Shown: positions 5,249 through 30,915 of the stretch, one piece after another | Layout: every line of letters starts with the position of its first letter | Position numbering within the stretch: the first letter of the stretch is position 1 | Origin: a virus | Reading direction: 5' to 3' (one strand) | Virus record (IMG/VR): IMGVR_UViG_3300050011_000138 | Location: 1 to 36,083 of that record | Length of the DNA stretch: 36,083 nt | Notes under the pieces: generated by a model | What the model was told of the DNA's origin: nothing | What the model saw: only the letters and a program-made list of their open reading frames with translations | Databases searched by the model: none | Position numbers and translations under genes: made by a program

Positions 5249-6721
5249 ATGATGAGCAAGTTGATGGAACAGCGTAAAGCGGCACAGACAAAGAAGTCAA
5301 CGATTCTCTTGTCCATCGATACGGCTAAGGATGCAGTCAACGTCGGTAAGTCCCTGTTGAATGCATATCAAGCCGAAGGTAAGAACGACCCACAGTTAGA
5401 ACAAGCTGTAAAGCATCTGGAAGAGCTACTTGCTAGTCAGCCAGACCAGATGCAGTCAGAAGGCGCAATGAACGTCGAAGATTATTTCGACGATGCAGTT
5501 TTGCCTGAAATAGCACGTCAAGCCAAGAACGAGGTAGATATGATCGCACAAAAGCGCAGGGAACAACGTCCCGCACAAGTAACTCAGAAGGCACCAGTAC
5601 AAGCCCCAGCCACGCAGCCACAGATGGCTTCTGATGAGAAAACGTCCGCCGTGGGCAACGATGCTTTCACGACTGACCGCGACGAACAGGGTAGCCCCAA
5701 GGCCCCTGAAAAGGCCGAAGTTCCACGTCTCGCTGCCAAGAAGAAGGAAGCACAGCCCGAAGTTGCTCCCATCGCTCCTCCTGCCCCAGCCCCCGCAGCC
5801 CCCGCCGCTGGCGGTGGATCGCTCGACGCCCTCTTCGCCAAATTGCCGTCTGACTTCCTCGCTGACCTCGTGAAGAAGCTGACCAGTCTCGAAGGTTTTG
5901 AACAGGACAAGGATGTACAGGCAGCCGTTGAGAACTTAGCTGGAAAGCTCCAGCAACGTCCAGTGGAAGCGGCTCCCGCTCCCGCAGCGCCCGGTGTTGT
6001 CGCTTCTGCAAAGAAGGCGGACGCATTCGGCGGCAAGCAGGCTCCTCCATTCGGTAAGAAAGACGAAAAGAAAGATGACAAGAAGGATGACAAGAAAGCA
6101 TCCATCAGCCGTCTCGGTTTGAACTTTGTCGCCGCTGAGAAGGAAGCACAAGCCCCGCCCCAGAAGAAAGAATCGAGCGTTGGCAACCCGTTCGCGACCG
6201 CATGGTCGATGTATAGCAATGGTGACAAGATGTCCGCTGTCAAGGCTGCTGCCGATGTACTTGCGAAGATGGCGAGCGGTGCCGCTGGCGGTGCATGGTC
6301 AGCCGATTCGGACAAGGGCAACATCGTCGAAGATGGTGGACGTACACCAGAAGTCGGCGAAGCACACGGCAAGATCGATGAAGCTCCCGCCCATCTGGAT
6401 CGTCCTACGACGACGCTCCCGATCAAATTAGCTGGCGAGATGACGGCCCAAAAAGCTGTAAAGGAGGCGGAAAGGCTGGGCAACGAGTTAAAGAAGACCT
6501 ACCTTGACGCCAAATCAATCTGTACGGTGAACGATAGCCGTCCAGTTCGTGAGTTTGTAGAGAGTATCTTCCGTGCAGGTGACATGGCTGATGAGGCGGT
6601 TAAGACCCTCAACAAGCAGGTTATGCAGGAAGAGTCCGAAGAAGCGGCTGCGAAAGTCCGTGAGAAGAGCAATAAAAAGTCTTCTTTCGGAGGCTTGGCA
6701 CTGGTAGCTTCAGCGGAATAA
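5249..6721 (+). CDS. Lys/Ala/Pro-rich modular virion-type protein with a tag shared with the 29953 gene
   Basis: The 490-residue protein has a helical N-terminus (about 1-120), a long low-complexity linker of Lys, Ala, Pro and Glu, a short helical module around SLDALFAKLPSDFLADLVKKL, a KDEKKDDKKDDKK run, and a helical C-terminus (about 390-490). ATG 5249 and ATG 5252 are both possible starts; AAGGGG lies just upstream. At residues 136-155 it carries GNDAFTTDRD..GSPKAP, nearly identical to a segment of the 29953 gene. Linkers with KKADAFGG, KKASISR and KKSSFGG resemble those in the scaffold-like and 2109-residue proteins. I do not recognise a catalytic domain. Position between sheath and tube suggests a structural or packaged protein, perhaps cut by the phage protease. 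Confidence 0.7.
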   Translation: MMSKLMEQRKAAQTKKSTILLSIDTAKDAVNVGKSLLNAYQAEGKNDPQLEQAVKHLEELLASQPDQMQSEGAMNVEDYFDDAVLPEIARQAKNEVDMIAQKRREQRPAQVTQKAPVQAPATQPQMASDEKTSAVGNDAFTTDRDEQGSPKAPEKAEVPRLAAKKKEAQPEVAPIAPPAPAPAAPAAGGGSLDALFAKLPSDFLADLVKKLTSLEGFEQDKDVQAAVENLAGKLQQRPVEAAPAPAAPGVVASAKKADAFGGKQAPPFGKKDEKKDDKKDDKKASISRLGLNFVAAEKEAQAPPQKKESSVGNPFATAWSMYSNGDKMSAVKAAADVLAKMASGAAGGAWSADSDKGNIVEDGGRTPEVGEAHGKIDEAPAHLDRPTTTLPIKLAGEMTAQKAVKEAERLGNELKKTYLDAKSICTVNDSRPVREFVESIFRAGDMADEAVKTLNKQVMQEESEEAAAKVREKSNKKSSFGGLALVASAE

Positions 6722-7620: not shown

Positions 7621-9600
7621 ATGAAGCCTAGCAACCCACTCCTACAAAAACAAGCTCTCGACCCTTGGTTTGAACAAATCAACGAGCCCGATTACGCTGA
7701 GCACCAACACCACTCCGACCCCAGTTACACCACTCAAAACGGCAAGGATTACGCGGGACGTGGCACCACTGAGAATGAAGAGGGTGCGCTCCAAGACGGC
7801 ATTCCCGCAGGTCTCCTCTCGGTTGAACTTGGCAAATCCGCCACGGCAGCATCTAATTACGAAGAAGTCTTGAATCAAGCTCTGGAAGCTCTTGAAACCC
7901 TAGCACAAGTAGGTCCAAGTGAAGACATCAAGGGTTGCGCGAGCATGACTGCGGGCGACCTGCGGCAATTCGCCGAGGACTACAAGGCAGGTAGAGCGCG
8001 ACGGTTCTCAAGCGATGTAGATAATCCCAGCGTCACTACGATGCCCAGTGCTCCCGCCCCAGTCGATCCCGACAACGCAAAATTCTTTAAGGAGAGTGAT
8101 CCCATGTCTAATGAATTTTCACCCGCCGAAGAGAAAATCAACGGTATCGTTGGGGGCGAGGGGTTTCACTACGGAGCCCGCGTGACCGATGGGACCACGT
8201 TGTGGTTTAGGGGAAGTAATGAGCGGCTTTCGTTTGATCCTAAGACTGGGAACGTCTCGTACCTGAGGAACGGAAAAGTTGAACTAGAGTGCCCCGTTGA
8301 CCAACTTCAAAAGAATGTCGGTAGGATGCTCAAATCCTCCGCTCGTGAGTTCCACGAAACCCTGAAGAAGGCGTTGGGTCAGACGGCTGCTATTCGTCCA
8401 TCGCCGACCAAAGTATTTGAAGATAAAGTCGATAACGCAACAGGAAAACAGCCCGTAGCACCGACAGAACCTTCCGATGACGATGTGATGAAAGCCAAGA
8501 TGACGCTCGAAAACGCTGGGGTTGGCGATCAGATTGGCGTAAACGCGGCTAATCCCAACATGACCGTGCAGAAATGGCGTCGTAGTCATCCCAAAGAGCC
8601 GATTCCTGAAAGTGAACGTCGTCCACTTGATCCGTTCATTGAGTGGTGGGTTGCTGAGATTCGTGAAGGACGCACGTACAACAGCGACATGGGTGAGGCG
8701 CGTAGGGCGTATGACAACTTACCCACCAAAGACGCGGCTGTCACCAAAACCTACGGCACGGGCACACCCCCGGGCGGAACACCGAACGATCCAAGTGTAG
8801 ATGTCGAAGAAGAGGATGAAGGGAAGACCTCCAGCCAAAAGCAAGCAGATGTTAGCATCCACGAAACACCGAAGTTTCTCCCACCTCGTGACGATATTCG
8901 TAGACACCTCGATGAAGATGTGCAGGATGAGGTGATGGAAGGCGTGATGGATGGTGTGAAAGATAAAACCGCCGACGCTATTGAAGGAGAAGTTGTACGA
9001 GGGGGTAACTGGAAGTTGTACGCTTTTCCTGTGGATACGCCCCTCGGACAATATGGGGAAATCAAGCGACCCGTTCCTCCGCACAGCACTTGGTATGTGG
9101 GTGATAAAGCCAAAGCACTCCCAATCGTGCAAGATAATTGGGGTCCATTGTCTCACGTACAAGAGAACCAACTGTTAGAACGCGGGTCATTGGACATGCC
9201 CGACGCCTTGCTTCGTTTGACCAACATGGACTACTCCAAGCCCATCGTCTGGCCGAAGAAGAAACTTCAAGCTTCAGATGACGATGAGATGGCGAATGAA
9301 TATTACTTGGATAAGGTCCAAGGCATGAAGGCCGAAGCCAAGGAAGCGTTCATGACAGATGGTTCCATGCAGCAAGAAGCTCAAGACGCTGGTATGAGCG
9401 TGGAAGAACTGTGGAAAGAGATCGGTGGGGATTTCACCGAGAACTACTACATGTCGGCCTATTCCAAACACGGATCGATTGAAGTTCAGGAGGGGTTTAA
9501 GTGCCCTAACTGCAAGAGTATGAAGGGGAAAGCGGTTGAGGACGGTACGGACGACGCGGTAAGCTTGCGGGAGTGTTTAACCTGTGGGAGTTTTTACTAA
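7621..9600 (+). CDS. Large unknown virion-type protein with C-terminal zinc ribbon
   Basis: The 659-residue protein is modular: an acidic N-terminal part (1-160), a second part starting at Met162, a Lys/Thr/Ala-containing linker region (about 270-420), an acidic helical stretch with VEEEDEG and DVQDEVMEGVMDG, a folded segment around GGNWKLYAFPVD and PPHSTWYVGDK, and a C-terminal zinc ribbon CPNCKS (about residue 629) with CLTC near the end. GAGG at 7611-7614 supports ATG 7621. An in-frame ATG at 8104 has a stronger GGAG site and could give a 498-residue product. It directly precedes the capsid protease gene and has protease-linker-like sequences such as GKTSSQKQA and KLQASDDD. No family is recognised; a head or packaged role is inferred from context. 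Confidence 0.65.
   Translation: MKPSNPLLQKQALDPWFEQINEPDYAEHQHHSDPSYTTQNGKDYAGRGTTENEEGALQDGIPAGLLSVELGKSATAASNYEEVLNQALEALETLAQVGPSEDIKGCASMTAGDLRQFAEDYKAGRARRFSSDVDNPSVTTMPSAPAPVDPDNAKFFKESDPMSNEFSPAEEKINGIVGGEGFHYGARVTDGTTLWFRGSNERLSFDPKTGNVSYLRNGKVELECPVDQLQKNVGRMLKSSAREFHETLKKALGQTAAIRPSPTKVFEDKVDNATGKQPVAPTEPSDDDVMKAKMTLENAGVGDQIGVNAANPNMTVQKWRRSHPKEPIPESERRPLDPFIEWWVAEIREGRTYNSDMGEARRAYDNLPTKDAAVTKTYGTGTPPGGTPNDPSVDVEEEDEGKTSSQKQADVSIHETPKFLPPRDDIRRHLDEDVQDEVMEGVMDGVKDKTADAIEGEVVRGGNWKLYAFPVDTPLGQYGEIKRPVPPHSTWYVGDKAKALPIVQDNWGPLSHVQENQLLERGSLDMPDALLRLTNMDYSKPIVWPKKKLQASDDDEMANEYYLDKVQGMKAEAKEAFMTDGSMQQEAQDAGMSVEELWKEIGGDFTENYYMSAYSKHGSIEVQEGFKCPNCKSMKGKAVEDGTDDAVSLRECLTCGSFY
8088..8106 (+). 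promoter_or_regulatory. Possible internal in-frame translation start
   Basis: TAAGGAG (8088-8094) lies 9 bases before an in-frame ATG at 8104 (Met162, MSNEFSPAEE). The spacing and match to a Shine-Dalgarno site are better than for the annotated start at 7621, so a shorter second product is plausible. Confidence 0.4.
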
Positions 9601-9626
9601 CTACAGCCCTCTTAAATAGGAACTCT

Positions 9627-10529
9627 ATGCCCTTTACGAAGATAGCCAACGCCGCAGTGCAAGAACCAGTCATCGCACCCGAAGACTGGATTAAGCTACA
9701 CGGAAAACACGTGTTCGGGCAGAAGTCTGCTTCGGGTTCAGCCGCCGCACAGACCTTTAGGAAATCCGCTGATACATCGAAATACCTGTTGTCCCACTGC
9801 ACCATCATGGCGAGCGTTATGGTCGAGTCCGATCCCTACGATTACCTCATCAAGCCCGAATGTAGTCACCTCGTCAATAACAACGATGACGCATGGACGA
9901 ACGAAGTTCTGAAGCTTAGCCACAGCAGCTTTGTTGGGGCCTTCAACTTCGTAGAGCACTTCCAGAATTCCAAATATGCGAAGGGGCACATACTCGATGC
10001 TATTCTTCGCAAGATCAAACTGAACGGCGATGGCTCTGTGTGGGTCTATTTCTGCGACATCCTTGTCGCCACGGACCTCGGACACGAGAAGCTGATTAAC
10101 GACATCCGCAGCGAGAAGGTCAAGTACCTTTCGATGGGCTGCGTGACTGATCTCGTTATTTGCAGCTATTGCGGAGCCCGCGTTACCGATCAAAACACCT
10201 ACTGCAACCACCTGTCGTACCAGAAGGGTATGTTCCTGACGGACGATGACGGTATTCCACGTCGTGTCGCCGAGCTTTGCGGACACAAGACAATGCCGCA
10301 GGGCGGCGTGAAGTTTGTGGAAGCGAGTTGGGTTGCTACCCCAGCTTTCCCCGGGGCTGCGAAGCGCAATACCGTGGCCGAAGAGTGGGTCGGGCCACGC
10401 ACCAAGTACACCAAGTCATCGACTGCTGGCAAGATGGCAAAAATTGCCAGTGTAAATGATGAATTCGAAACCGTTAATTTAGGCGATGCTTTAATGAACG
10501 CGGACCTGCACGGGAGACTAATACGCTAA
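9627..10529 (+). CDS. Capsid maturation (prohead) protease with Cys-rich finger
   Basis: I chose ATG 9627 (300 residues) because AGG at 9618-9620 precedes it; an earlier start at 9573 would overlap the previous gene and add 18 unlikely residues. Residues 96-125 (KLSHSSFVGAFNFVEH then KGHILDA) and 163-171 (EKVKYLSMGC) match the herpesvirus-type protease fold used by phage prohead proteases, with His111 and Ser169 as likely catalytic residues. Immediately after is CSYCG...YC.HL (179-195), a Cys/His finger known in proteases of some large myoviruses. Near the C-terminus ASWVATPAFPGA resembles the conserved closing PA-D-P-A segment. It overlaps the next gene by one base (TAATG), the usual protease-scaffold pairing. 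It should cleave scaffold and N-terminal propeptides inside the prohead. Confidence 0.77.
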   Translation: MPFTKIANAAVQEPVIAPEDWIKLHGKHVFGQKSASGSAAAQTFRKSADTSKYLLSHCTIMASVMVESDPYDYLIKPECSHLVNNNDDAWTNEVLKLSHSSFVGAFNFVEHFQNSKYAKGHILDAILRKIKLNGDGSVWVYFCDILVATDLGHEKLINDIRSEKVKYLSMGCVTDLVICSYCGARVTDQNTYCNHLSYQKGMFLTDDDGIPRRVAELCGHKTMPQGGVKFVEASWVATPAFPGAAKRNTVAEEWVGPRTKYTKSSTAGKMAKIASVNDEFETVNLGDALMNADLHGRLIR

Positions 10530-12691
10530 TGGCAAACGCAACGAAATCAAAGTTGGCAGCGGCGAAAGCCGCACTTAACCGCAAGCAGGCTGATTTGGAC
10601 GCTATTGACGACCAGATCATGGGTCTGGACTCTGGCATTCCAATGGACGCCCCCGCTACCCCCGAATTTGACCTCCTTACCGCGAAGCGCGAAGAGCTTG
10701 AAGAAGAGATTCGCACCATGCGCGAAGGCGTTCAGTTTATCTCCGAGTGGGAGAAACTGAAGGGCGGACAGTGGTCGGAAGGTATTCGGTCCCAGTTGGA
10801 CGGCCTCGACTCAGAGATCGCCAATATAGCTGGCGGCGATGCCGCCGAGCCGGGTATGGGCGTAGGTCCAGATTTGGGAGCCCCAATGGGCGATCCCCTA
10901 GCTGCACCGCCTGCCCCAGATGCCCTAGCAGCACCAGCGGGCGAAGTGGCTCCTGAAGCCGCCCCAGCCCTCGATGCGGCACCCGATGCCGTCGCACCTG
11001 CACCAGAAGCACCTGCACCTGCCTTGGAACCTCCTTTGGCGAGTGCAAAATCCGCAGTAAACAAGAAAAATAACTATCAAACCTCTCAAAAGAGGGGCAA
11101 TTCTGCTCCGCAGATGAAAAAGGAAGGCTCCAACATGGCAAACCCTACAGCTACCAAGCCCTCGAACCTGAAAGAGAAGCTTGCTGAACTGAAAACGAAG
11201 CGCGAGACGATCAAGAAGGAAGCACAGGTTCGCACCGCTGCGGCATATACTATTGCCAACACGATGCTCCCGAGCGCCCCTGTTGAGAAGCGTCAGGCAT
11301 TCGCCTCCTCGCTACTCCAAGGTAACGACACCAAAGCCCTCGTTGCTGCCCTCCGTCAAACCGCGATCAACGCCCACTACTCCAAGGTCGCCGAACAATT
11401 CAAAGAAGTCCACAAAGTCGAACTCAATGATCTCCTCGAAGACCCGTCCGTTCTGAAGTCCGAGCGTTCGGCTGTCGAAAAGGAAATTAAGGGTGATGCG
11501 AAGTCGGCTACTTCGAAGAAGGCCGATGACCGCAAAGACGCTGGTCCGCAAGAAGGCACCTACGAAGATGGTCGCAAGGGCTCCGAGCCGAAGGAAATGG
11601 AAGCCTCGAAAGCTGGCGACCGTCCTGACGCTGGCGAGAAGCCCGGTCAGACCGTGAACCTTAGCGATGGCAAGTCCGCCGCCGCGAAGAAAGCATGTAA
11701 GGACGGCGAAAAGTGCGCTGGCTGCGAGAACTGCAAGAAAGCCGCTGAGAAGAAGTGCGACAAGTGCAAAGGCGAATGCAAGTGCGCTTCTAAGACTGTT
11801 GCAGCCAAGTCAAAGAAGGCCGATGAACCACCGATGGACGCTCCCATGGACGCCCCTGCTGGCGATGCACCCGCAATGGATGCCCCAGCCGCAGATTTAG
11901 GTGCCGAAGTTGATGCTCCCATGGACGCCCCAATGGAAGGTGATGCCCCAGTCGATGACGCAGGTGCGATCCTTACCGACGAGAAGAAGATGGTCGTTCA
12001 AGAAGAGATCGACACCGTTAAGGATGCCGTTCGTGCTCTTGAGACCGAGCTTCTTGAAGAGAACGAAGAGGAAATTCCTCTCGCTCTTGAAGAAGGCGAA
12101 GGCGAACCCTCCGAAGAAGAGCTTGACCTTTCGTCCGTGTTCGATCAGGGCGAGATGGAAGACAAGGCTGCTTCGCTTGCCAACGAAGGTGAAGAGCACA
12201 CCGCAGGCGACGACGGGGATTTCTTTGCCCCAACATCTGCCGCAGGCATGGAATCTGTGCTCGACGACAGCGGTATGCAGGTAGCCAGTATCGAGAGCTA
12301 TTTCGATATGCAAGGCTCCGACGCCGACCCACTGTACAGCTTGATCGCATCTGAAACCAAGGAGGCTGCTGCCGTTGCTGGTTTTGACGTGCTTGAGTCC
12401 TTCACTGGTGAAGTGGCGAACAAGATGAAGCAGGACGGCTCCGAAGGTCGCGACAACGAAGTCGATCATGATGAAGACCTCTTCGTCGAAGCAATGAAGG
12501 ACATCAAGCCTGAGGAACAGGGCGCAAAGCGCACTCCGCAGGATGCACGTCCCGAATTGCAGGCTCCGAAGTCCGCAGCCGCAAAGACCGCAGCCAAGGT
12601 TCCTACAGGCAGCATCAAGCGTGTTCGTCCTGTCGTAGCCTCACCGAAAGCCGTTGACATCGCCACTGCGCTGTTCGGCAACGACGAGTAA
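10529..12691 (+). CDS. Scaffold-like acidic, Ala/Pro-rich prohead protein
   Basis: The 720-residue protein begins on the TAATG overlap with the protease gene, the classical position of a scaffold. Residues 1-95 are coiled coil; 105-175 are an Ala/Pro-rich linker; 203-320 are helical and Lys-rich; about 385-435 contain a Cys cluster (CKDGEKCAGCENCKKA, CDKCKGECKC); then come MDAP repeats (about 435-475), an acidic helical part (485-560), and a C-terminal helical part ending in KVPTGSIKRVRPVVASP and ATALFGNDE. The basic C-terminus could contact the capsid protein. Repeated KSA/KTA motifs (SAKSAVNKK, KSAAAKTAAK) may be cleavage sites. An internal start at 11135 could give a 518-residue form, similar in idea to nested scaffold genes. 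The Cys cluster is unusual for a scaffold, so a packaged protein is an alternative. Confidence 0.65.
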   Translation: MANATKSKLAAAKAALNRKQADLDAIDDQIMGLDSGIPMDAPATPEFDLLTAKREELEEEIRTMREGVQFISEWEKLKGGQWSEGIRSQLDGLDSEIANIAGGDAAEPGMGVGPDLGAPMGDPLAAPPAPDALAAPAGEVAPEAAPALDAAPDAVAPAPEAPAPALEPPLASAKSAVNKKNNYQTSQKRGNSAPQMKKEGSNMANPTATKPSNLKEKLAELKTKRETIKKEAQVRTAAAYTIANTMLPSAPVEKRQAFASSLLQGNDTKALVAALRQTAINAHYSKVAEQFKEVHKVELNDLLEDPSVLKSERSAVEKEIKGDAKSATSKKADDRKDAGPQEGTYEDGRKGSEPKEMEASKAGDRPDAGEKPGQTVNLSDGKSAAAKKACKDGEKCAGCENCKKAAEKKCDKCKGECKCASKTVAAKSKKADEPPMDAPMDAPAGDAPAMDAPAADLGAEVDAPMDAPMEGDAPVDDAGAILTDEKKMVVQEEIDTVKDAVRALETELLEENEEEIPLALEEGEGEPSEEELDLSSVFDQGEMEDKAASLANEGEEHTAGDDGDFFAPTSAAGMESVLDDSGMQVASIESYFDMQGSDADPLYSLIASETKEAAAVAGFDVLESFTGEVANKMKQDGSEGRDNEVDHDEDLFVEAMKDIKPEEQGAKRTPQDARPELQAPKSAAAKTAAKVPTGSIKRVRPVVASPKAVDIATALFGNDE
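11082..11137 (+). promoter_or_regulatory. Leader-like hairpin and internal start inside the scaffold-like gene
   Basis: CCTCT (11082-11086) pairs with AGAGG (11091-11095); downstream AAGGAAGG (about 11120-11127) precedes an in-frame ATG at 11135 (Met203, MANPTATK). The layout resembles the leader before the gene at 22747 (hairpin, then Shine-Dalgarno, then ATGGCA). It may be an old intergenic leader now read through, or an active internal start. Confidence 0.4.
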
Positions 12692-17102: not shown

Positions 17103-18062
17103 ATGGCAAACCTTTCTCGTACACAACAGCAGACGGCTATGCTTGGACAGTTGCTCAAGACTGCGGGTGGTCGTCAGAAATTAGCGGCTTCGTTGGGACC
17201 GTCCCTCCGTCGTCGTCGTGACTATATGAGCATTGCTCGCAAGGCTCTTATGGTTGAAACTCTTCCCGATGGCGCTCTGCCCATCTACGATAAGGAATTC
17301 GATGTAAGCGCGATGACTGTGGGCTCGACCCCCGGCTCGTCCTTCGTTGAAGCCTTTGTGGTAGGTGAAGAAGGCGGCGACATCGTGCGCGTTACCAAGC
17401 CAAAGCGTGTCACGGTTCCGACGTTTGAAATCGTGTCCAACCCGATGATTCCGATCACACAGATCAAGGAACGTCGTTTCGATCTCGTTGCTCGCTCACT
17501 CAACCTCGCAAAGGCTGAAGTAGGCGCGGCAGAAGATGGTTACGTGTTCAACCTGTTTGACGGCGTTGCCGCAGGCGCGGTAGGCCACGCACCAAACGAT
17601 CCGGTTTACAACCCCGACATCGCCATCAACGCTCCCATCGACATCAACTCGTTGGCAGACGGCTTTGGTCAGGTTGCACGCCACGATCTTTCCGTTGCGT
17701 TCATCTTCTTCAATCCCCGTGATTACACGGATTTGTTGAAGTGGACTCAGCAAAACATCGACCGCGAAACACAGCGCAAGCTGTTGAAAACGGGCGTGAT
17801 GGGCTACCTCTGGGGCGCAACGCTTCTCCAGTCTCGTAAAGTCGGCTACGGCTGCATTTACATTCTGGCGGACGCCGAGTTCTTGGGTGTCATCCCCGAA
17901 CGTATTCCGTTGACCGTGATGTCTGCCGACCGTCCTGACCTCCGTCAAATCGGTTTCAGCATCTTCGAGAACTTGGGCTTCTTGGTGTTCAACCCATCAG
18001 GTGTCCAGCGTCTCACCGTCAATGGCCGCTTCAACGCGACCTCCAACTTCGGCGAGAACTAA
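17103..18062 (+). CDS. Major capsid protein, HK97 fold (probable)
   Basis: The 319-residue protein has a helical, basic N-terminus (1-45; QTAMLGQLLKTAGGRQKLAASL) as a possible delta domain, then PDGALPIYDKEFDVSA, VTKPKRVTVPTFEIVSNPMIP, a spine helix region (RFDLVARSLNLAKAEVGAAED), and ATLLQSRKVGYGCIYILADAEFLGVIPER with a C-terminal beta segment. This order fits short HK97-type capsid proteins of large phages. AAAGGAG at 17083-17089 precedes ATG 17103. It follows the likely decoration gene and ends before a strong terminator, as expected for the most abundant virion protein. The KLAAS near residue 28 could be the protease site. Confidence 0.75.
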   Translation: MANLSRTQQQTAMLGQLLKTAGGRQKLAASLGPSLRRRRDYMSIARKALMVETLPDGALPIYDKEFDVSAMTVGSTPGSSFVEAFVVGEEGGDIVRVTKPKRVTVPTFEIVSNPMIPITQIKERRFDLVARSLNLAKAEVGAAEDGYVFNLFDGVAAGAVGHAPNDPVYNPDIAINAPIDINSLADGFGQVARHDLSVAFIFFNPRDYTDLLKWTQQNIDRETQRKLLKTGVMGYLWGATLLQSRKVGYGCIYILADAEFLGVIPERIPLTVMSADRPDLRQIGFSIFENLGFLVFNPSGVQRLTVNGRFNATSNFGEN

Positions 18063-20800: not shown

Positions 20801-22651
20801 ATGAGCATCCACTTCGGCCCCAAAATTCCGCAGTTATTCGTTAGCGCAGCCCTCGGTGACGGCTATTACACCGCAGGCGAAGCGTTGCTGCGCGGGCTTC
20901 AGGCACTCGTTGAGTCGAACGTTATCAGCGTCGGGTTGAACACACCGCCCGTGTCCCCCGCCAACGGAGACTCCTACATCATTGGAAGCAGTCCTACGGG
21001 TGTGTGGTCGGCTCAAGCTAACAATCTCGCCTACTGGTCAACCGACAATCCAGCGGTTCCAAGCGGTGAATGGGAATACTACACACCGAAAAATGGTTGG
21101 GCTGTGGGCAGCGGAAACGCGCTTTACATTTTTAATAACGGAGCTTGGGCTACTACGACTTTGGCTTCGTTGTCCGATGTGTCCCTTCCCTCAGGCCCTT
21201 CGTCTCCCGTCACCACGCAATTAGCTACGGCAGCAACTTACGCCGTACTGGGAACCACGGTCACGAACTCGGATGGTGCGGGCACGGTCATCAGCGGTGG
21301 AAATGTCGGAGGCACAACCATCACCGCAGGCACCCCGCCATGGACTTTGACACCGCCTACGACAGTTATCTCGCCTGTCGCATCTCAAGCCTTGACGGAC
21401 CTCAACACGGCAATCACTCATTACGAAGGTTTGACCTTCATCCAGACACTCACTACAGCAGACATGGGCACCCAGCATTCAGCGGGTGCTCCGACTGGCA
21501 CCTACTATGCGGGCAATTATAAGAGTGGATCGAGCCTTGCAATCAGCACACCAATCATTCTTGATGCACAGGGCAGTCCGAACGCTGTGTTCGTATTCTA
21601 CGCGACCGCTTCGACAATCACTCAGGCTATTGCTGGAACGATCACACTAGCCAATGGTGCTCAAGCTGCTAACGTAGTTTGGGTCGTTGGAAGCTCATGG
21701 ACAACGATTGGTCCGGGTGCTGTTACTGTGGGTAACATTCTCGCTGTCTCGTCGATTACATTGGGCGGTGGGTCGTTGGCAGGCCGGGCACTAGCCAACG
21801 CCGCCGTTACCATGAATACTGCTACCACCATCACCGCCCCACCATCAGGAATACCGACTGGGGCTGTCCTTACTTTCAACGGAACTGAATTCGTTGCTAC
21901 GGTTCCGAGTTCAGGTTTTGCAAACCCCATGACCACCGTTGGGGATATGATCTACGAGGGCTTGACTGGTTCCCCAGCCGTGCTCGGCCCCGAGCGACTA
22001 CCAATCGGTACTTCTGGTCAAGTATTGACGGTGGTTGCAGGTGTACCCGCGTGGGAAACGGCGGCAGGTGGTGGGTCAAAGTTCCAGACAGCAGGACTGG
22101 GTTGGTTTCTTGGCGGTCAGGACTATAGCACAGTTGGGACTGGAGCGGGCGGAAGCATTCACACTAACAATGTCGTGAATGTAATCCAAGTCATTCTCGA
22201 AGTTGAGTTTGTCATATCCCACGTCACGGCTACCACGGTCACAGGTTCGGGTGCTGGCGGTTGGATGACGTGTGCTCTCTACTCAGCGGATGGAAATACG
22301 AAACTGATTGACGCGGGAGCAAATTTTCTCGACACGTCAAATCACAGCCAATGGACTAAACAGGTTGCGGTTGGGCCTGTCACTCTCCCTTCGGGAATTT
22401 ACTGGTTCGCGTGGGGGAGTTACGATGCCTCAAACGGCGGTTCCGTGTTCAGCCATCAGGATTCCACTTCGATGGCGAACCTCCTGAATCAATGGTCGTT
22501 TCCGTACTCGTCTCCAGTCCCACCCGTCCGATTTGGTTCAGCCGCAAATGCAATCACAGGCGGTGGGGTTATGCCCACCACTCTGGGCACGATTACGCCA
22601 TTCTCGTTCGGGGGAGAGCCAGTCGTGCCTGTTGTAATGTTTAGCGTTTAA
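20801..22651 (+). CDS. Tail fibre with DUF2793-like and DUF3494 domains
   Basis: The 616-residue protein starts at ATG 20801 after GAGGACGG. Domains in order: a DUF2793-like module at about 20-115 (PPVSPANGDSYIIGSSPTGVW, W..YTPKNGWAVG, NNGAW), a DUF3494 ice-binding-like domain at about 137-345 with LDAQGSPNAVFVFYA and NGAQAANVVWVVGSSW, a linker (NPMTTVGDMIYEG...LPIGTSGQVLTVV) common in phage fibres, and a C-terminal beta domain (MTCALYSADGNTKLIDAG, LPSGIYWFAWGSY) like the receptor-binding ends of fibres. It probably trimerises and contacts the host; DUF3494 is a beta-helix also found in bacterial adhesins. The DUF3494 part is close to that of the sheath, including 17 identical bases. Confidence 0.8.
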   Translation: MSIHFGPKIPQLFVSAALGDGYYTAGEALLRGLQALVESNVISVGLNTPPVSPANGDSYIIGSSPTGVWSAQANNLAYWSTDNPAVPSGEWEYYTPKNGWAVGSGNALYIFNNGAWATTTLASLSDVSLPSGPSSPVTTQLATAATYAVLGTTVTNSDGAGTVISGGNVGGTTITAGTPPWTLTPPTTVISPVASQALTDLNTAITHYEGLTFIQTLTTADMGTQHSAGAPTGTYYAGNYKSGSSLAISTPIILDAQGSPNAVFVFYATASTITQAIAGTITLANGAQAANVVWVVGSSWTTIGPGAVTVGNILAVSSITLGGGSLAGRALANAAVTMNTATTITAPPSGIPTGAVLTFNGTEFVATVPSSGFANPMTTVGDMIYEGLTGSPAVLGPERLPIGTSGQVLTVVAGVPAWETAAGGGSKFQTAGLGWFLGGQDYSTVGTGAGGSIHTNNVVNVIQVILEVEFVISHVTATTVTGSGAGGWMTCALYSADGNTKLIDAGANFLDTSNHSQWTKQVAVGPVTLPSGIYWFAWGSYDASNGGSVFSHQDSTSMANLLNQWSFPYSSPVPPVRFGSAANAITGGGVMPTTLGTITPFSFGGEPVVPVVMFSV

Positions 22652-22707
22652 GGAAGGTCGTCATGAGACAGCGTACCTTCGCAAGTATAACGAAACTCAA
22701 CTACAGT

Positions 22708-22749
22708 CCCCCTTTGCAGGGGGTATTCCTCCCTTCGGAGCTTAAAATG
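22708..22749 (+). promoter_or_regulatory. Hairpin and ribosome binding site before the 22747 gene
   Basis: CCCCC (22708-22712) pairs with GGGGG (22719-22723). GGAG (22737-22740) lies 6 bases before ATG 22747. The layout matches the internal leader of the scaffold-like gene at 11082-11137. Confidence 0.45.
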
Positions 22750-22980
22750 GCAAAGAAAATCGCAGCAGCAGACGCAACGGCAATGAATTCGCTCTACAAG
22801 GGTGAACTCGGTCGCCTCGGCCTCAAAGTCGCACAGAAGGACGCGAAGGACTCCCCAGCGGGGCAATCTCACGATCCTCAGGCTTTCGAGGACCACGAAG
22901 ACTACATGAAGACCCTTGAGTCAGTCTTGAAGGAAGACGAAAAGACTGGCGGCGACCCTAACGACGAGATCACCGACTAA
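22747..22980 (+). CDS. Small acidic protein, possible head component
   Basis: I chose ATG 22747 (77 residues, MAKKIAAADATAMNSLYKG) because of its own GGAG and the leader hairpin. An in-frame ATG at 22663 with AAGGAAGG would add 28 residues that look like translated leader. The protein is Lys/Ala-rich at the N-terminus and acidic at the end (EDEKTGGDPNDEITD). The GL...KVAQKDAKDSPAGQSHDP segment resembles linkers in other modular proteins here. It precedes the 2109-residue gene by 12 bases; role unknown. Confidence 0.6.
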   Translation: MAKKIAAADATAMNSLYKGELGRLGLKVAQKDAKDSPAGQSHDPQAFEDHEDYMKTLESVLKEDEKTGGDPNDEITD

Positions 22981-22992
22981 GAGAGGGAAAGA

Positions 22993-25900
22993 ATGAAGCT
23001 GGACGCCACACAAGCGGCGGCTGCCAAGCTTTCCCACCTAATCGAGCCCGGGCGTACCGTCTATTCCACGGACGGACGCGCCTATCGGGTTCTGTCTAAG
23101 ATCGCCTCTGGGGGCTCCCTGAGCTTCCGTCTGGCAAATCTTCAGGGACAGCCTGTAACCCCCGTAACCTTCTTCCCGATTGACGGGACTCGGATGCGTT
23201 TCGCGTCCTTCCTGAAGTTCGCCTACAACAAAGACATCACCAATATCGTCAACGAAATGATTCAACAGGCGGGCCTACCCATCGACCCCAAGATGGACTG
23301 GTCTGCGTACCTTACGAAGACCTACGCAGCAAACCTCAGGTCCGTAACCACCGATCCAGACATTCAGGATGAGGTGATCTATCGGACTGTCATCTATCTT
23401 TTGTTTGAACGAAAGAACAAGAACGGTAAAAAGGTTCTGGAGAACTTCGCCGAAAAACTTAAGAACTTCGATGTAAAAACCCAGAAAAAGCCACTCGCAG
23501 AACAGGTCAGCGACTATTTGAAGGGTACCTTCCTTTACTACGCCAAAGATCACGCCAAGCAGGACGCGATTGCCTTGATGCGTCCCGAAGAGTTGAGTAT
23601 GGAACAACCCGGCGAAGAGGGTGAGACATACAACATTCTCGACACCGAAGAACACGCCACACTTCCGGGCGTTGGACAGGGCGAGGCCGACCGAGACATC
23701 GATCAGTTTATCGAACAATTCCAAGAATGGGTGAAGACCAAGGAGACCCCGAAGTCCGCCCCCAACTATGCCGCATTGCTCAAGATTTACTGGGAACAAG
23801 CCCAGCAGTCCGAGCGTGGCGATGTTAAGATCAGCGATTTGACTCAAGAGTGGATTCGCCGCACGGGTCTGAGCTTTGACTCCCTGAAGCAGTATCGGGA
23901 TAAGATTGGCGGCTTGATTCGGGACTTCGTTTACGAGAACAAAGCCCAATTGGGCAACTCTTATAAACTCGTGGACCTGTTGCAGCACATGTTCCCGCCG
24001 CCTCCGAAGGCGAAAGCACGTCCAGCCAAAGCTTCGTCCGATCAGTCAAAGCAAGCGATGAACGCACCGGATTTGAGTATAGAGACGCTGAACAGGATGT
24101 ATCGCATTCAACTCGAAGGACTGGCACAGGGGGACTGTGAAGGCGATGGCACAGAAACCTGTGATTGCGAAACGTGTGAAGCACGGGAAGAGTTAGAGCG
24201 ACTCACGGGAAAGCAAGCTACAAAGAAACCCAAGTGCCCACACTGTGGCTCGTCCGACTACGGTTTGATGCCCACGGATTTCGAGACCGCTAAATGCAAC
24301 GGTTGCGGTAAGAACTGGGAGCACGGCATCGTCAAAGGTATTAACGACCCCAAGACGGCTGCTCAATTGTGCAAGAATTGCGGGATTTATTATGGGGGGT
24401 ATACATGCCTTAATTGCGGGCGAGCGGGGAATAAGCTGGAAGAAGCCGTCTCCCGCTTCAGCAAAGAACTCAAGAAATTTCCGAAGGGACCAACGGGCAT
24501 GACACCCGACGATGTGAAGGCTACCCCAGAATGGCAGGAAGCGAAGCGTAACTACAATCAGGCTTTTGAAAAGCTGCGGGAATTCAATTCTCAAAAGCAA
24601 GGTGCGGAGAACCTCGGCCAATGCTCTTGTGAGTGGTCGGAATGTCCACTGGGTCACCAAGCAGGTGGCTGTCCGAATCCCGCCGTCCACATGCTCGAAA
24701 TTTATGGGTTCAAGACCCGCTACTGCCAACCATGCACCGACGAAACTATCGAGTACATCCGTCTGGAACACGGTACGGGCGACCCTGACGATACGGTTAA
24801 GATTCTGTCGAGTGAAGATGATGATCCACCAGCGCCCGACTCCCCAACCAAGTGCGGCACGTGCGGTAAGGAATGCGGAAGTAAGGTCTGCGATGAATGT
24901 CGTGCTCGTTATACGAAGTCTTCGGCGTTAGACCCATCTGACGAATCTTACGACAAGAAGTGTGCGGTATGTGGTGAGAAAAATTTCGACCGTATTAGCG
25001 GACGGCTGGTCTGTCAAACTTGTCACCCCGAAAAGCATGTAAAGGAATCGAGCAAGTATGGCGACAAGATCAAGAAGAAGATGGAGGCTCGTCGCGGTGA
25101 GTCTATTGAGACAACTCTTAAGAAGGCGGACGACGAGGAGAAGACCACTCTTCAGAAACTCCCCAACGATGGCGGCTTTACACCCGTTGCAGGTATCGAG
25201 AAAGAAGGGATGCTCGGTCACGATTTCGTGGACGCCGATCAGCAAACGATCCGTCCCGACATCACGCCCGGAGATACGGGACGTGTGCCGCACGGACGCA
25301 CGCAGGGCAGCGGCAGCGGTATGTCACGTTGCAATTGCGGCATCACGCCGTGGGATTCAGGAATCCACAAGGAATGGTGCTACGTTTCCCAACACCCCCG
25401 AGAAGAAAACGATTTGACCGCAGGTTCGAAGGAAGCTGCGGAATCGACGGGCTGCGGCTGCGTACATTGTGGTACGCCGCACTCGGCATGTATCGGATTC
25501 AAACACAAGGTCGGCCCATGTGATTGCAGAGAGAAGTGGGACAGTCGGCAAAAACTTGACGACCAGCATAATCCAGCAAAGCGAGATTGGCAGTCTGGAG
25601 AATGGTTCAATCGCAATCGTGTTAAGGAATCTGCGGACGCACTACGCTTCGTTGTAATGCCGGGTCCATACCCACTGGAAGTACACAAAGAAAACTGCCG
25701 TGACATGAACATGCCGAAGTACCGCAGCGCACCCAAAGATTGGGTTCTTACGGGGAACTCGGTTGACGAAGTGGTGAACGAAGAGGCAAGCGAGTTGAAT
25801 AGTCAGTTCGACCATCCGTATGAGACCAAAGAACTTTTCCGTATCATGCCTTGCTGCCGTAAGAAAGTTGCGACATCGTTGCAGGTGTTAGAATGCTGCG

Positions 25901-28900
25901 GCTCGGTCACTGGGCATCACAAGCCCGACTGCAAGGTGTACAATGAGAACTTCAACAAGACCCTGACTCAGTTGTACCCAGAAAAGTTCAAGACTGACGA
26001 GAAGATCGTATCCGCAACGAAGACAGCGGGTAAATGGAAAGTCCTCCTGCGTGATTCCAAGGGTCAGCAGCGTGAGCAACAGGTTTCAGGCGTGGATTAC
26101 AGTTCAGCCTCCCGTGCCGTGAGAAAGTACATGAAGGAAGGCGAGAACGTTGTGTCGATGACTATCGCGAGCAAGAAAAAGACGGCAGCACCCGCATCGG
26201 CGGCTCCAGCAAAGGCTGCACCAGTACCCGTACCAACGCCAATGCCCGCTGCTCCGGGCGGTGTAGTCGGGCAACAACCCGGCGTACCTATCGCTCTACC
26301 AAGTCAACAAGAAGATCGTATGCGGAAGACCGTTCCACCTGAGCTTCCCGGAAAGAAGTGGCACATGAGTTCAAAGACAGCGAGCATTCTCGAAGACGCC
26401 TTCCAGTATTTTATGGAAAGTAAGAAAGATGGCGGACTAGCCGACGTGTTTAACGAGACGTACACCCGCACGGGCAAGGGCGAAGACAAGTACATGGCCG
26501 TCAGCAAGCTCATGATGGACTTTGAGTACGCTTTCCAGCGCGAAGAGGACGGCTCCCTGAGCGACATCGACGACTACCGTGAGGACGCGGAGAACGCCCT
26601 GCGTGAGATCGTTGGCGACGACCCGAACTACAGTGAGAGGACCGACAAGACTGCGGATAGTGAGGGACTTAAGAACTTGATGAATACCCCGTGTATGCTG
26701 AATGAAGAGTCGGGAGAACGCTTAAAGTCTGAACAGAATACGCCCGGGATGGAAGCTGAGGTCGCTACATTGGCACAGACCCACCCCGAGACCGAGATTC
26801 ACGAGAACTGCAATCCATACTTTGAGCACGATCAATGGTGGGTGGTTTGCGGCCCGTGCGGTGCCATTTGGTCCGTTGTCGATGTCGGTAATTTAGCCGA
26901 GAGCGGTCTTGATCTGGAAGCAGTTGAGATGGGCGATGATTCGTGCCAAGATAATTTCCATGAGTCTTCTACGATTCAGGTTCCACCGTCGTTGGCGACT
27001 CAAGCACAGAAAGTAACTTCATCCAAGGAAGTTGACTGTGCGGGCTGCGGTAAAGTGTTTGACCCCACCGATGTTGAGGAGCAGGGCCACGAGTCCGAAG
27101 GTAAATGGTACTGTGGAGATTGCAGCAAGGAAGCCTCGGGCTCAAAGACAGCATGGACTGACGAGGGTGAAGAGGAAGAGACAATTGAAGATCGTTTGGA
27201 ATACCTCCGAGGCGAACTCCGCGCCGAGCGGATCAGTCAGGGGGAGTTGATGGAATTACAGGGTCTTGTCGATTACATTGATCCCGGCGATGTGGAGTTG
27301 TTGGAAGCTGCTGGTGTCGAAGAAGTTATACCTCAGCCTGATATACCCATTGAGACACCTACGTTCGATGAAGCCGATAAAACTCGTCTGAAGGGTCTTG
27401 GTGTAATCGGAAAGAAAAAGAAAGCGTTCGAGCCCGACGCCAACAGTGGCATCCGTGGGTCGAATGACGGCACGTACATCTATCAAGCGGAACTGTGGTG
27501 CCCGACTTGTGCGAAGGAGATCGCAGCCGACATCCAGCAGAACTATCCTCAGCAGGTTCCCGCTGATCCAACGGACGAGCGTTCCTATGATTCGGACAAC
27601 TACCCGAAGGGACCTGAGTTTGAGGGCGAGTCCGATTCACCCGATCATTGTGCGGGCTGCAAGATTTTCCTTGAGAACCCCCTGACCACGGACGGCTACG
27701 AGTACATGAAGTCGATGGTTGATGAGGCTCTGGCAAAGGGTCGCGGCGAAGAGCCGCACATTAAGGAGTGGATGGATTTCTACGGCTATCACGGTCCTGA
27801 GGTAGAGGAAACCGAAGAGCATGAGGCGTCCGATGCCTCCGATAAAATCAACGCGATGCCGCAACGCGGCAGACCAAAGAGCCCATCACAGTTGGGTCTT
27901 CAGGAAAAGTCAGAACTCGATCTGCGTAACGAGGGAATCCCTCTAAGAAGCAGCGAGGATAAGGAAGCAGCCATGGACAACAAGAAAGCAGCAATCGCAC
28001 AGCCCACGTCTGGCGAAGACGAAGGGTTCAACGTCAAGGTCGTCTACAACAAGTACGGCATCACGCTGGAGCCGACCGCAAATCTGCTCAGTGATGTGCA
28101 GGGTATCGGCGAAATGATTAACAAGCCGAACATCTTCGAACTCATGGAGGACTTCTTCACCAATGGCTGGGAGATGGTCAACCCTGAGGACATCGGAGCA
28201 CTGACATCCGGCGAACTCATGAGCGACCAAGATGGCAACGTCTACTGGCATGAGCGTTACCAGATCGAGGACATGGTTGAAGAACTCATGAACGGCAACA
28301 AGGTCAACTTGCAGTACGGCGGCAACCTTTTCGAAATGGACGAGGGCAGCGAGATCGCCCCGCCCGCCGAGCCCGACCCGAATCAGATGGACCTGCCGCT
28401 CCAGTCTTCCGCTGAAGACACCGACTACAAGGACTGGCAGTACGAGGTCGCTAACGGTGACACCAAGCTGAATTTTGAGGATTGGAAAATGCACAAAGAG
28501 GAGGCCGACAAGTTCAGTCCAACGAGTTCCGAGGATACTGACCACAAAGACTGGCAGTATGAAGTTGCCAACGGCGACACCAAACTGAATTTCGAACAGT
28601 GGAAAGAACACAAGCGGGAAGCCGATTCGTTTGGTCCGAATAAAAAGGAAGCCACGGGCGAGATGAGTCAGGGCGAGCTTGACGCCACTGGTCGCGAGGA
28701 ATGGCCGATGCACTACAACATCGCCGATGCTCTCGGGGCTGAAGTAAAGCCGTTCGATCAGTATCAGGGTCCGTATGTTCGCGTACCCGAGGGTCGTCTG
28801 TGGGTCACCACCCCTGAAGGGGCTGGCGACGGAGCAGAACTCATTGTTTGGAACGAGCACAATCGTAAGTCAAGCGAGCCGTTTATGTGGGATGATGAGA

Positions 28901-29322
28901 ACGCGGCAGTCGATGCCGCCCTCAGCGTCATGGACAATCCCCCAGCAAACACTTTGCCTTGGGGCGCGGAGCGCGAGGAGCAGTTGAAGAACGGACCTGA
29001 CACGTCGGATGTTGAGGACACAGTTCCAGCGGAACATCCCAAGGACTGGACGCCAACGTATGACGAGGGCGACAAAGCCCGTCTGAAAGGACTCGGCGTC
29101 AAGGGTTCAAAGAAGCGGGCCGCACCCGGCGACGGTGGGCTACAACGCGACGTGCAGAACCAGTACGAGAACCACCCCGTGGTTCAGATGCTTTGGGATT
29201 CTCTGAAGCGTGATCCCCAGCACAAGGATCGCGTCCAGACGGCATGGGGCACCAAGACGAAGCAGGGCTTAGTGTTGAGCATTGCTCGCGCTATGAAAGA
29301 GAGCCCAGCTTCGGGAGAATAG
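22993..29322 (+). CDS. 2109-residue modular protein: sigma-like N-terminus plus many zinc-ribbon modules
   Basis: GAGAGGG precedes ATG 22993. Residues about 90-320 (TTDPDIQDEVIYRTVIYLLF, YLKGTFLYYAKDHAKQD, then an acidic part and WIRRTGLSFDSLKQYRDKIGGL) look like sigma-factor regions 2 and 4; this is inference. Then come Cys-rich modules near residues 391, 415, 460, 544, 621, 657, 780, 820, 950, 1282 (WWVVCGPCGAIWSVVD), 1349 and 1503-1566 (WCPTC..., CAGCKIFLENPLT), with an Ala/Pro linker at about 1063-1090. Helical and acidic modules follow, including a tandem 39-residue repeat and two RLKGLGV segments. Linkers carry KTA motifs (KKTAAP, SSKTAS, GSKTAW). Several modules resemble stand-alone small phage proteins from memory. 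It may be a polyprotein cut by the maturation protease and carried in the head. I recognise no catalytic site. Confidence 0.75.
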   Translation: MKLDATQAAAAKLSHLIEPGRTVYSTDGRAYRVLSKIASGGSLSFRLANLQGQPVTPVTFFPIDGTRMRFASFLKFAYNKDITNIVNEMIQQAGLPIDPKMDWSAYLTKTYAANLRSVTTDPDIQDEVIYRTVIYLLFERKNKNGKKVLENFAEKLKNFDVKTQKKPLAEQVSDYLKGTFLYYAKDHAKQDAIALMRPEELSMEQPGEEGETYNILDTEEHATLPGVGQGEADRDIDQFIEQFQEWVKTKETPKSAPNYAALLKIYWEQAQQSERGDVKISDLTQEWIRRTGLSFDSLKQYRDKIGGLIRDFVYENKAQLGNSYKLVDLLQHMFPPPPKAKARPAKASSDQSKQAMNAPDLSIETLNRMYRIQLEGLAQGDCEGDGTETCDCETCEAREELERLTGKQATKKPKCPHCGSSDYGLMPTDFETAKCNGCGKNWEHGIVKGINDPKTAAQLCKNCGIYYGGYTCLNCGRAGNKLEEAVSRFSKELKKFPKGPTGMTPDDVKATPEWQEAKRNYNQAFEKLREFNSQKQGAENLGQCSCEWSECPLGHQAGGCPNPAVHMLEIYGFKTRYCQPCTDETIEYIRLEHGTGDPDDTVKILSSEDDDPPAPDSPTKCGTCGKECGSKVCDECRARYTKSSALDPSDESYDKKCAVCGEKNFDRISGRLVCQTCHPEKHVKESSKYGDKIKKKMEARRGESIETTLKKADDEEKTTLQKLPNDGGFTPVAGIEKEGMLGHDFVDADQQTIRPDITPGDTGRVPHGRTQGSGSGMSRCNCGITPWDSGIHKEWCYVSQHPREENDLTAGSKEAAESTGCGCVHCGTPHSACIGFKHKVGPCDCREKWDSRQKLDDQHNPAKRDWQSGEWFNRNRVKESADALRFVVMPGPYPLEVHKENCRDMNMPKYRSAPKDWVLTGNSVDEVVNEEASELNSQFDHPYETKELFRIMPCCRKKVATSLQVLECCGSVTGHHKPDCKVYNENFNKTLTQLYPEKFKTDEKIVSATKTAGKWKVLLRDSKGQQREQQVSGVDYSSASRAVRKYMKEGENVVSMTIASKKKTAAPASAAPAKAAPVPVPTPMPAAPGGVVGQQPGVPIALPSQQEDRMRKTVPPELPGKKWHMSSKTASILEDAFQYFMESKKDGGLADVFNETYTRTGKGEDKYMAVSKLMMDFEYAFQREEDGSLSDIDDYREDAENALREIVGDDPNYSERTDKTADSEGLKNLMNTPCMLNEESGERLKSEQNTPGMEAEVATLAQTHPETEIHENCNPYFEHDQWWVVCGPCGAIWSVVDVGNLAESGLDLEAVEMGDDSCQDNFHESSTIQVPPSLATQAQKVTSSKEVDCAGCGKVFDPTDVEEQGHESEGKWYCGDCSKEASGSKTAWTDEGEEEETIEDRLEYLRGELRAERISQGELMELQGLVDYIDPGDVELLEAAGVEEVIPQPDIPIETPTFDEADKTRLKGLGVIGKKKKAFEPDANSGIRGSNDGTYIYQAELWCPTCAKEIAADIQQNYPQQVPADPTDERSYDSDNYPKGPEFEGESDSPDHCAGCKIFLENPLTTDGYEYMKSMVDEALAKGRGEEPHIKEWMDFYGYHGPEVEETEEHEASDASDKINAMPQRGRPKSPSQLGLQEKSELDLRNEGIPLRSSEDKEAAMDNKKAAIAQPTSGEDEGFNVKVVYNKYGITLEPTANLLSDVQGIGEMINKPNIFELMEDFFTNGWEMVNPEDIGALTSGELMSDQDGNVYWHERYQIEDMVEELMNGNKVNLQYGGNLFEMDEGSEIAPPAEPDPNQMDLPLQSSAEDTDYKDWQYEVANGDTKLNFEDWKMHKEEADKFSPTSSEDTDHKDWQYEVANGDTKLNFEQWKEHKREADSFGPNKKEATGEMSQGELDATGREEWPMHYNIADALGAEVKPFDQYQGPYVRVPEGRLWVTTPEGAGDGAELIVWNEHNRKSSEPFMWDDENAAVDAALSVMDNPPANTLPWGAEREEQLKNGPDTSDVEDTVPAEHPKDWTPTYDEGDKARLKGLGVKGSKKRAAPGDGGLQRDVQNQYENHPVVQMLWDSLKRDPQHKDRVQTAWGTKTKQGLVLSIARAMKESPASGE
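27358..27420 (+). repeat. RLKGLGV module, copy 1
   Basis: Encodes PTFDEADKTRLKGLGVIG followed by Lys residues. A second copy at 29053-29115 differs at only a few residues. Both end in a Lys-rich stretch (KKKKAF, KKRAAP), as if marking a module boundary. Confidence 0.75.
28414..28647 (+). repeat. Tandem 117-bp (39-residue) repeat, two copies
   Basis: Copies at 28414-28530 and 28531-28647 both encode EDTD.KDWQYEVANGDTKL followed by NFE.WK.HK.EAD.F. The period is exactly 39 codons. The two copies differ in many synonymous positions, so the duplication is not recent. Confidence 0.9.
29053..29115 (+). repeat. RLKGLGV module, copy 2
   Basis: Encodes PTYDEGDKARLKGLGVKG followed by SKK and RAAPG, matching copy 1 at 27358-27420. 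Located near the C-terminus of the 2109-residue protein. Confidence 0.75.
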
Positions 29323-29952: not shown

Positions 29953-30915
29953 ATGGCAAAAGAAAAGAAAGCAGATCGTGAGGCCGTCCGTAAGGCTATT
30001 GTAGCCCGCCGCGAAGCCCGCAAGCAGGAAAAGACCGCCCAATACACGAAAATGCGTGAGACAGCGGTATCCCCAGCGAAGTTCGCCAAGATTCTCGACG
30101 ATCTCGTAGCGAAGACCGCTCGTCAAGCCGACAGTATGGAAGCTCTCCGTTACAACCTCGGCCTTGCTAGGGTCGCCAAGGAAGCTCCCACCAAAATTCG
30201 CATCGCCGCCGCCAAGAACTACGGCAAGAAGTTTGTCCGTATCGCCGACGAGCAGCCCGATGTTCTGGCTGACGCTCTCACGCAAGCTTATAAGGGCTTG
30301 GATGAGCAGGCAGCGGCCATGGAAATCGCCGCCGAAGCTCTGGGTATCGATCTCGGTGCCACGTCCGCTGAAAAGGCATTCACCGACGAAGGCAAGCACG
30401 AGCTTGAGCTTGGTGAAGACAAGGGTGAAGCTGTAGCCGAAGTCGAAGGGCCTGACTTCGAAGCAAAAGAAGAGACCGAAGCTGAAGACGCCGCCGAGCC
30501 TGCTGACAAACCCGCAGCCGAACCTGAGGAAGATAAGGAAGCCAGTGGCAACGATGCTTTCAGCACCGACCGCGACCCATCGGGTGCACCCAAGGCACCG
30601 CAAAAAACTCAGAGTCCACAAGCTCAAGGTCAATCCGAACAAAACAAGGCAGGCTCCAGTAAGACTGCAATGTCACGTAAGGATTATATCTTACTGGCAG
30701 ACGCGATCAAGACTAGCCAGTTAAGCGGTGCTGACAAAGAAGCTTTCGCCAACCATCTATCGTCGTCCCTCAAGGGAGACAATTCCGCGTTTAACCCGAC
30801 CACCTTCGTCGAATACACGATGGGACGGGCGGGTAATCGTGGCGGACCAGTGAAACCACAAGGCCAACCGCGTAAACCACGCCCTGCCCCAATCACCGCT
30901 CCCGCAGGCGTCTAA
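29953..30915 (+). CDS. Modular Ala/Glu/Lys-rich protein with a small phage domain at the C-terminus
   Basis: The 320-residue protein starts at ATG 29953 after GGTGGAGG. Residues 1-145 are helical and basic (KADREAVRKAIVARREARKQEK); 146-198 are acidic; 199-218 are GNDAFSTDRD..GAPKAP, the tag shared with the 5249 gene; then a Gln/Ser/Lys linker ends in SSKTA. Residues about 237-290 (MSRKDYILLADAIK ... FANHLSSSLKGDN..FNPTTFVEYTMG) look like a small phage protein family (MTRKDYELIA..I) often found alone. The Arg/Pro C-terminus is basic. I infer fusion of a small protein to a longer precursor, with SSKTA as a possible cleavage site. No enzyme activity is recognised. Confidence 0.65.
   Translation: MAKEKKADREAVRKAIVARREARKQEKTAQYTKMRETAVSPAKFAKILDDLVAKTARQADSMEALRYNLGLARVAKEAPTKIRIAAAKNYGKKFVRIADEQPDVLADALTQAYKGLDEQAAAMEIAAEALGIDLGATSAEKAFTDEGKHELELGEDKGEAVAEVEGPDFEAKEETEAEDAAEPADKPAAEPEEDKEASGNDAFSTDRDPSGAPKAPQKTQSPQAQGQSEQNKAGSSKTAMSRKDYILLADAIKTSQLSGADKEAFANHLSSSLKGDNSAFNPTTFVEYTMGRAGNRGGPVKPQGQPRKPRPAPITAPAGV

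Follow-up and report, generated by a model that had tools for sequence, protein, structure and literature searches.

The window analyzed here is the whole 36,083-nucleotide stretch of a 36-kb IMG/VR virus record (IMGVR_UViG_3300050011_000138), the source of which is called a soil jumbo phage. Its subject is one giant gene on the plus strand (22993 to 29322), which forms a single frame of 2109 amino acids (aa) with an ATG at 22993, a stop codon at 29320 to 29322, and no internal stops. A sequence-only reading had described the product as a beads-on-a-string protein with a dozen Cys-rich modules, a 39-residue tandem repeat, and two RLKGLGV segments, and all of these features were recovered. The frame is uninterrupted and its modules are gained and lost among relatives, 12 modules (M2, M3, M4, M6, M7 with its double ribbon, M10, M11, M12, M13, M16, M17, and M19) have at least three Cys residues each, the repeat copies begin at residues 1809 and 1848, and RLKGLGV occurs at residues 1465 and 2030. 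The giant contains 55 Cys residues, and its 16 CxxC pairs compare to 1.4 expected by composition (P = 4e-12). Its architecture is a conserved N-terminal domain of approximately 330 aa followed by approximately 25 small modules that are gained, lost, repositioned, and swapped among relatives. The modules are listed below in window coordinates; model confidence is given as the AlphaFold2 predicted local distance difference test (pLDDT).

22993..24000 (+): M1, conserved N-terminal domain, residues 1-336; 62-91% identity in near relatives, pLDDT 76
24034..24675 (+): M2-M5, variable Cys segment, two zinc ribbons (408-479), and helical module (480-538, phrog_7560, E 3e-5); from the table of presence and identity in relatives
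24610..25860 (+): M6-M12, residues 540-956, Cys-rich modules including a double zinc ribbon (616-683) and the conserved short M8 and M9; M10-M12 patchy in relatives
25870..26184 (+): M13-M14, residues 960-1064, CCGSV module and KWKVLLRD module; M13 missing in L012, M14 in all near relatives
26185..26370 (+): Ala/Pro/Lys linker, residues 1065-1126; seen in the sequence and kept in all near relatives
26374..27138 (+): M15-M17, residues 1128-1382, helical module, WC module, and zinc ribbon; M15 missing in L012, M17 only in the window and L111
27148..27423 (+): M18, residues 1386-1477, helical, with the first RLKGLGV at its end; besides the window, only in L007, L009, and L111
27424..27810 (+): M19, residues 1478-1606, compact Cys4 module, elsewhere mostly a solo phage protein; sequence matches, pLDDT 94
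27823..27984 (+): M20, residues 1611-1664; from the module table of relatives
27997..28407 (+): M21, IGALT module, residues 1669-1805; common to two other kinds of large late proteins
28411..28644 (+): M22, residues 1807-1884, two copies of the 39-residue repeat; both copies in L007, none in L009, L012, or L015; phrog_11556, E 4e-4
28648..28956 (+): M23, residues 1886-1988; 96% identity to L009, 56% to L007
29026..29319 (+): M24 (second RLKGLGV) and M25 (conserved C-terminal module), residues 2012-2109; from sequence and the module table

A chimera or frameshift artefact is excluded because homologs of 1931 to 2002 aa exist on other IMG/VR contigs, and these homologs, together with purifying selection, also rule out an assembly artefact or fused genes. 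Purifying selection acts on each shared module that was measured: the nonsynonymous rate was well under the synonymous rate in every shared-module comparison that could be computed, a few of the synonymous values being saturated. A Pfam search with the giant gave no family at its cut-off (the top match was Zn_ribbon_RRN7, residues 653-678, E 1e-4), and a PDB sequence search gave no match. No enzymatic domain was found by Pfam or PHROGs, searches that enzymes of a novel type could escape.

Modules in relatives, solo proteins, and other late giants

A scan of viral contigs gave 11 relatives, with full-length homologs in four further architectures. When the five architectures were aligned, gain and loss of modules fell at linkers. 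M21 and M22 were 97 to 100% identical to those of L007 and the adjoining M23 just 56%, while the comparison with L009 gave the reverse, with M23 96% identical and M22 missing. The M3 zinc ribbon was 90% identical to that of L111 (a 455-kb contig), versus 33% for the N-terminal domain. These identities indicate that neighboring modules have separate histories. The WKSPIGT module of L012 is placed differently from that of L015, and another giant of the phage represented by L012 has a related copy. In the genomes searched, the P0001 query matched the homolog gene of each genome and, in genomes that have them, further K-x-A-rich giants, with a weak exception in a 208-aa frame of G010. Two scans of genome contigs gave no relative as an integrated or host copy.

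At least two modules exist as solo small proteins in other phages. The M19 core (residues 1494-1599) occurred in roughly 30 IMG/VR contigs, mostly as a solo protein of about 100 to 160 aa; the same family includes gene XM05_117 of Erythrobacter phage XM05 and segments inside the giants L111 and L113. The M19 model was confident, yet Foldseek gave no PDB fold match for it. Residues 481-537 matched phrog_7560 and small proteins of Pantoea phage Phynn and Stenotrophomonas phage RAS14. The earlier suggestion that several modules resemble small phage proteins found alone thus holds for these two segments, and for the 39-residue repeat there was only the weak phrog_11556 match.

Modules were also shared among large proteins. 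M21 occurred in three kinds of large late proteins, namely, the family of the giant, the gp328 family (in L175 and the cultured Tunturiibacter phage Tunturi_5), and a DarB-like-family protein of L173, which carried two copies. Another module was common to two large late proteins of one phage. In L175 (1662-3788), a unit of approximately 50 aa was tandemly duplicated with AKTA before each copy. The Tunturi_5 member of this last family is gp350, and its deposited name "DarB-like" had no Pfam or PHROG support. Separately, G002 214871-223279 (L044, L045) encodes three adjoining large K-x-A proteins of 726, about 803, and 1082 aa, one of which shares a polyprotein module of that phage.

The N-terminal domain was found alone as a 301-aa protein in L061 to L065 and L090, with two Cys-rich segments in a 570-aa protein of L059 (by reading), and ahead of other loads in L066, L093, L113, G009, and Tunturi_5 gp345. 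L060 (8929-13023) encodes a homologous giant of 1364 aa that includes a BRCT domain (Pfam E 3e-10) besides its zinc ribbons; this BRCT module was closest to those of phage NAD-dependent DNA ligases. The domain does not belong among the interchangeable modules, and it probably has a role of its own. Its AlphaFold model predicted a small beta-barrel and two helical bundles, and in VIA comparisons parts of the model reached Z 4-5 (all below 8) to sigma and TFIIB chains, a likeness of outline and order only. VIA gave sigma, TFIIB, and cyclin chains, all at Z below 5, and the outline was also like CarD/tudor. Foldseek searches of PDB and BFVD with this model gave no match better than E 0.1. Membership in sigma-70 was not supported by sequence: PF04542 and PF08281 were unmatched in the N-terminal domain of all nine records searched, and hhalign against true phage sigma factors gave a probability of 0.3%. 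The predicted sigma-like character of the domain is kept as a lead.

Lys-x-Ala and the late gene cluster

Boundaries were defined as the points where relatives cease to be alignable, and a residue pair was scored when it lay no more than 8 residues from a boundary; a boundary test that took in distant relatives was too noisy and was replaced. Lys-x-Ala (K-x-A, or K.A as a gapped pair) marks the module joints of the giant. K.A ranked first of 215 gapped residue pairs for boundary association, with 17 of its 20 occurrences near boundaries (P = 2.5e-5, versus 1.6e-3 for the runner-up). The KTA/KSA-type linkers pointed out in the sequence-only reading generalize to K-x-A. In composition-matched shuffles performed separately inside and outside boundaries, 4.7 were expected near boundaries and none of 2000 reached 17. 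The mirror pair A.K was near boundaries in 4 of 9 cases. For the restricted form K[TSEAVIKRQ]A beyond residue 345, 17 of 19 sites in the window alone were within 8 residues of a boundary compared to 7.3 expected (circular shift P = 0.003), and pooling the five near relatives and L111, which are not independent of each other, gave 67 compared to 33 expected. Cutting at every K-x-A was computed to give mostly pieces of approximately 50 to 250 residues.

The gene sits beside maturation protease and capsid genes, as had been stated earlier, within a late cluster of head and tail genes. Its same-strand neighbors include the head protease, a scaffold-like protein, the major head protein, and tail genes, in an order shared with relatives.

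9573..10529 (+): head maturation protease, the candidate processing enzyme; phrog_18299, E 9e-15
10529..12691 (+): scaffold-like Ala/Lys-rich protein with 16 restricted-form K-x-A sites; assigned solely by its composition and by its place following the protease
17103..18062 (+): major head protein with LLKTA at residues 17-21; phrog_2522, E 5e-43
5249..6721 (+): head-cluster protein with K-x-A linkers, put in the Tunturi_5 gp328 family (annotated DNA ejection protein) from a shared C-terminal segment, by reading
22663..22980 (+): small protein encoded before the N-terminal-domain gene; its homologs precede that gene in every relative examined, Tunturi_5 gp344 among them
29953..30915 (+): downstream late protein, N-terminal half similar to the C-terminus of Tunturi_5 gp345 (27% over 77 aa, E 6e-5)

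K-x-A, a short motif, is present in the capsid protein, the protease, the scaffold-like protein, and the giant. It occurs near the protease N-terminus in the window, Tunturi_5, and L063, and K[TS]A is found near the N-terminus of the major head protein in all relatives examined. Among 279 open reading frames of Tunturi_5, K.A enrichment was strongest in three products of the late cluster, namely, gp348, gp328, and the scaffold-position protein gp332, which follows the protease gp331. A search of the available literature for a Lys-X-Ala head-protease motif found none.

Several other features of the cluster were recorded. The tail-sheath-like gene at 79-4344 and the tail-region gene at 20801-22651 each encode an Ice_binding domain (PF11999; E 3e-28 and 1e-25, respectively), an unusual insertion for phage tail proteins. 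Between the scaffold-like gene and the capsid gene, the N-terminal part of the 12784-13692 product reads as the end of an RHS core (NLYAYSTNPLSQTDPTGLDD) and had no Pfam hit. Genes for an endonuclease VII (4355-4807) and an HNH endonuclease (18644-18982), possibly of the homing type, also lie within the cluster.

Interpretation of the giant

We propose that the giant may be a late head-directed polyprotein whose Lys-x-Ala sites are cleaved by the maturation protease so that module-sized cargo remains in the head, a reading based on sequence that we hold with about even confidence. The head maturation protease would cut after K-x-A in the flexible linkers that bound each module of the giant, a step that we infer with belief and doubt in equal measure, and would probably cut the scaffold, itself, and the capsid protein after K-x-A as well. 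Module-sized pieces of roughly 50 to 250 residues would be freed inside the prohead, and part of them would stay in the head, be ejected with the DNA, and act early in infection. Modules that are solo in other phages may join the string by gaining linkers and may be exchanged among several late giants. There is precedent in SPN3US, a jumbo phage in which abundant ejection proteins are cleaved by the head protease wherever a single short motif recurs, several times per protein (gp245, A-X-E; PMC10052503). The interpretation offered in the sequence-only reading, a polyprotein cut into many small packaged proteins, is as a whole partly supported.

A number of observations weigh against this proposal. 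K-x-A was initially chosen by eye, before the unbiased pair test, and it is a short motif that is in part a by-product of Ala/Lys-rich linkers. Boundary association was not significant in L111 alone, and L175 was the only member of the gp328, DarB-like, and gp348 families to replicate it, few and distant relatives being compared; in these three families K.A was enriched both inside and outside conserved stretches. Some joints, those of the 39-residue repeat among them, have SS in place of K-x-A, and some predicted pieces (256 and 220 residues) would hold several modules. The KTA of the capsid protein says little alone because the whole capsid N-terminus is highly conserved. In SPN3US, propeptides that exit the head make up most of the freed fragments (PMC10052503), so a cut piece is not necessarily a delivered one. 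The report on Tunturi_5, the sole cultured relative found, gives no virion proteomics (PMC11924767).

The strongest competing explanation, which we nevertheless regard as unlikely, is that the giant is an uncut head protein of the polyvalent type, packaged and ejected as one chain, with its modules acting while tethered and K-x-A reflecting mere linker composition. The multidomain polyvalent proteins of phages, whose genes lie close to virion genes, are believed to be injected (PMC5512222). One is encoded by Tunturi_5 itself: gp273 (L069 13802-18271) is 1489 aa long, combines NUDIX, ART-PolyVal (E 3e-42), and GNAT domains, and is annotated just as a MutT/NUDIX hydrolase. Against an uncut chain, 17 K.A pairs lie at joints compared to a composition-matched expectation of 4.7, and no enzymatic domain was found in the giant. 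A scaffold or core protein, the modules of which occupy the prohead and, once cut, exit ahead of DNA packaging as pieces without function in the host, would fit the linker style common to the giant and the scaffold-like protein encoded at 10529-12691 and the mostly exiting propeptides of SPN3US (PMC10052503). It is improbable, since expendable filler would not be expected to consist of folded, Cys-rich modules that are each conserved and have solo homologs in unrelated phages. Slightly less probable again is a late cytoplasmic hub that is never packaged, for example a transcription regulator in which a sigma-like N-terminal domain is joined to zinc-ribbon partners. The likeness of that domain to sigma, TFIIB, and CarD chains, in outline and in the right order, and the many zinc ribbons favor such a hub; VIA Z scores below 8, Foldseek E values above 0.1, the unmatched Pfam sigma models, and the 0.3% probability in the profile comparison with phage sigma factors count against it, as do the position of the gene among virion genes and the modules shared with other late-cluster giants.

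P1 DarA/DdrB and the T4 internal head proteins are processed, packaged in the head, and injected (partly as cited in PMC5512222). They differ from the giant in having one protein per gene rather than an array, and no sequence match between them and the giant was found. Like the polyvalent proteins (Iyer et al. 2017, PMC5512222), the giant is very long, multidomain, and mosaic and is encoded among virion and late genes, with solo versions of its domains elsewhere; packaging and injection have been proposed for that class. It differs in having approximately 25 small Cys-rich or helical modules per chain compared to 2 to 15 domains, and no ART, peptidase, methylase, primase, or other enzymatic domain listed for the class was found in it; processing of polyvalent proteins is credited to built-in zincin-like peptidases (PMC5512222). 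The ejection proteins of the SPN3US/phiKZ type resemble our proposal in combining a maturation protease, a short motif, and several cuts per precursor, but there the cuts strip N-terminal propeptides (PMC10052503), while the putative motif K-x-A separates many modules along the whole chain of the giant. An annotated counterpart, Tunturi_5 gp345 (PP885688, a virion structural protein by annotation alone), has an orthologous N-terminal domain and the same gene order; it is 667 aa long with a different, smaller load, and its C-terminal part corresponds to a separate gene in the window.

The giant would work like a polyvalent or ejection protein, yet without the known enzymatic domains of that class. 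What appears to be new is that one K-x-A-punctuated chain joins numerous small modules that can be exchanged, some being solo orphans elsewhere. More tentatively, and with somewhat less confidence than in the polyprotein itself, we suggest an evolving cargo array: this jumbo-phage lineage may collect small phage proteins as K-x-A-bounded cassettes in several late giants, the head protease would separate them, and they would be delivered premade with the DNA, in the manner of RNA-virus polyproteins. Tunturi_5 offers a cultured relative in which the polyprotein reading can be tested. Should that reading be correct, a tailed phage packs many different small proteins into its head at a constant ratio by means of a polyprotein, and K-x-A becomes a testable cleavage code for a large group of uncultured jumbo phages. 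The array would then naturally record which proteins it pays to deliver ahead of any gene expression, and common orphans among phage proteins, for example the M19 family, would be linked to a role in early infection.

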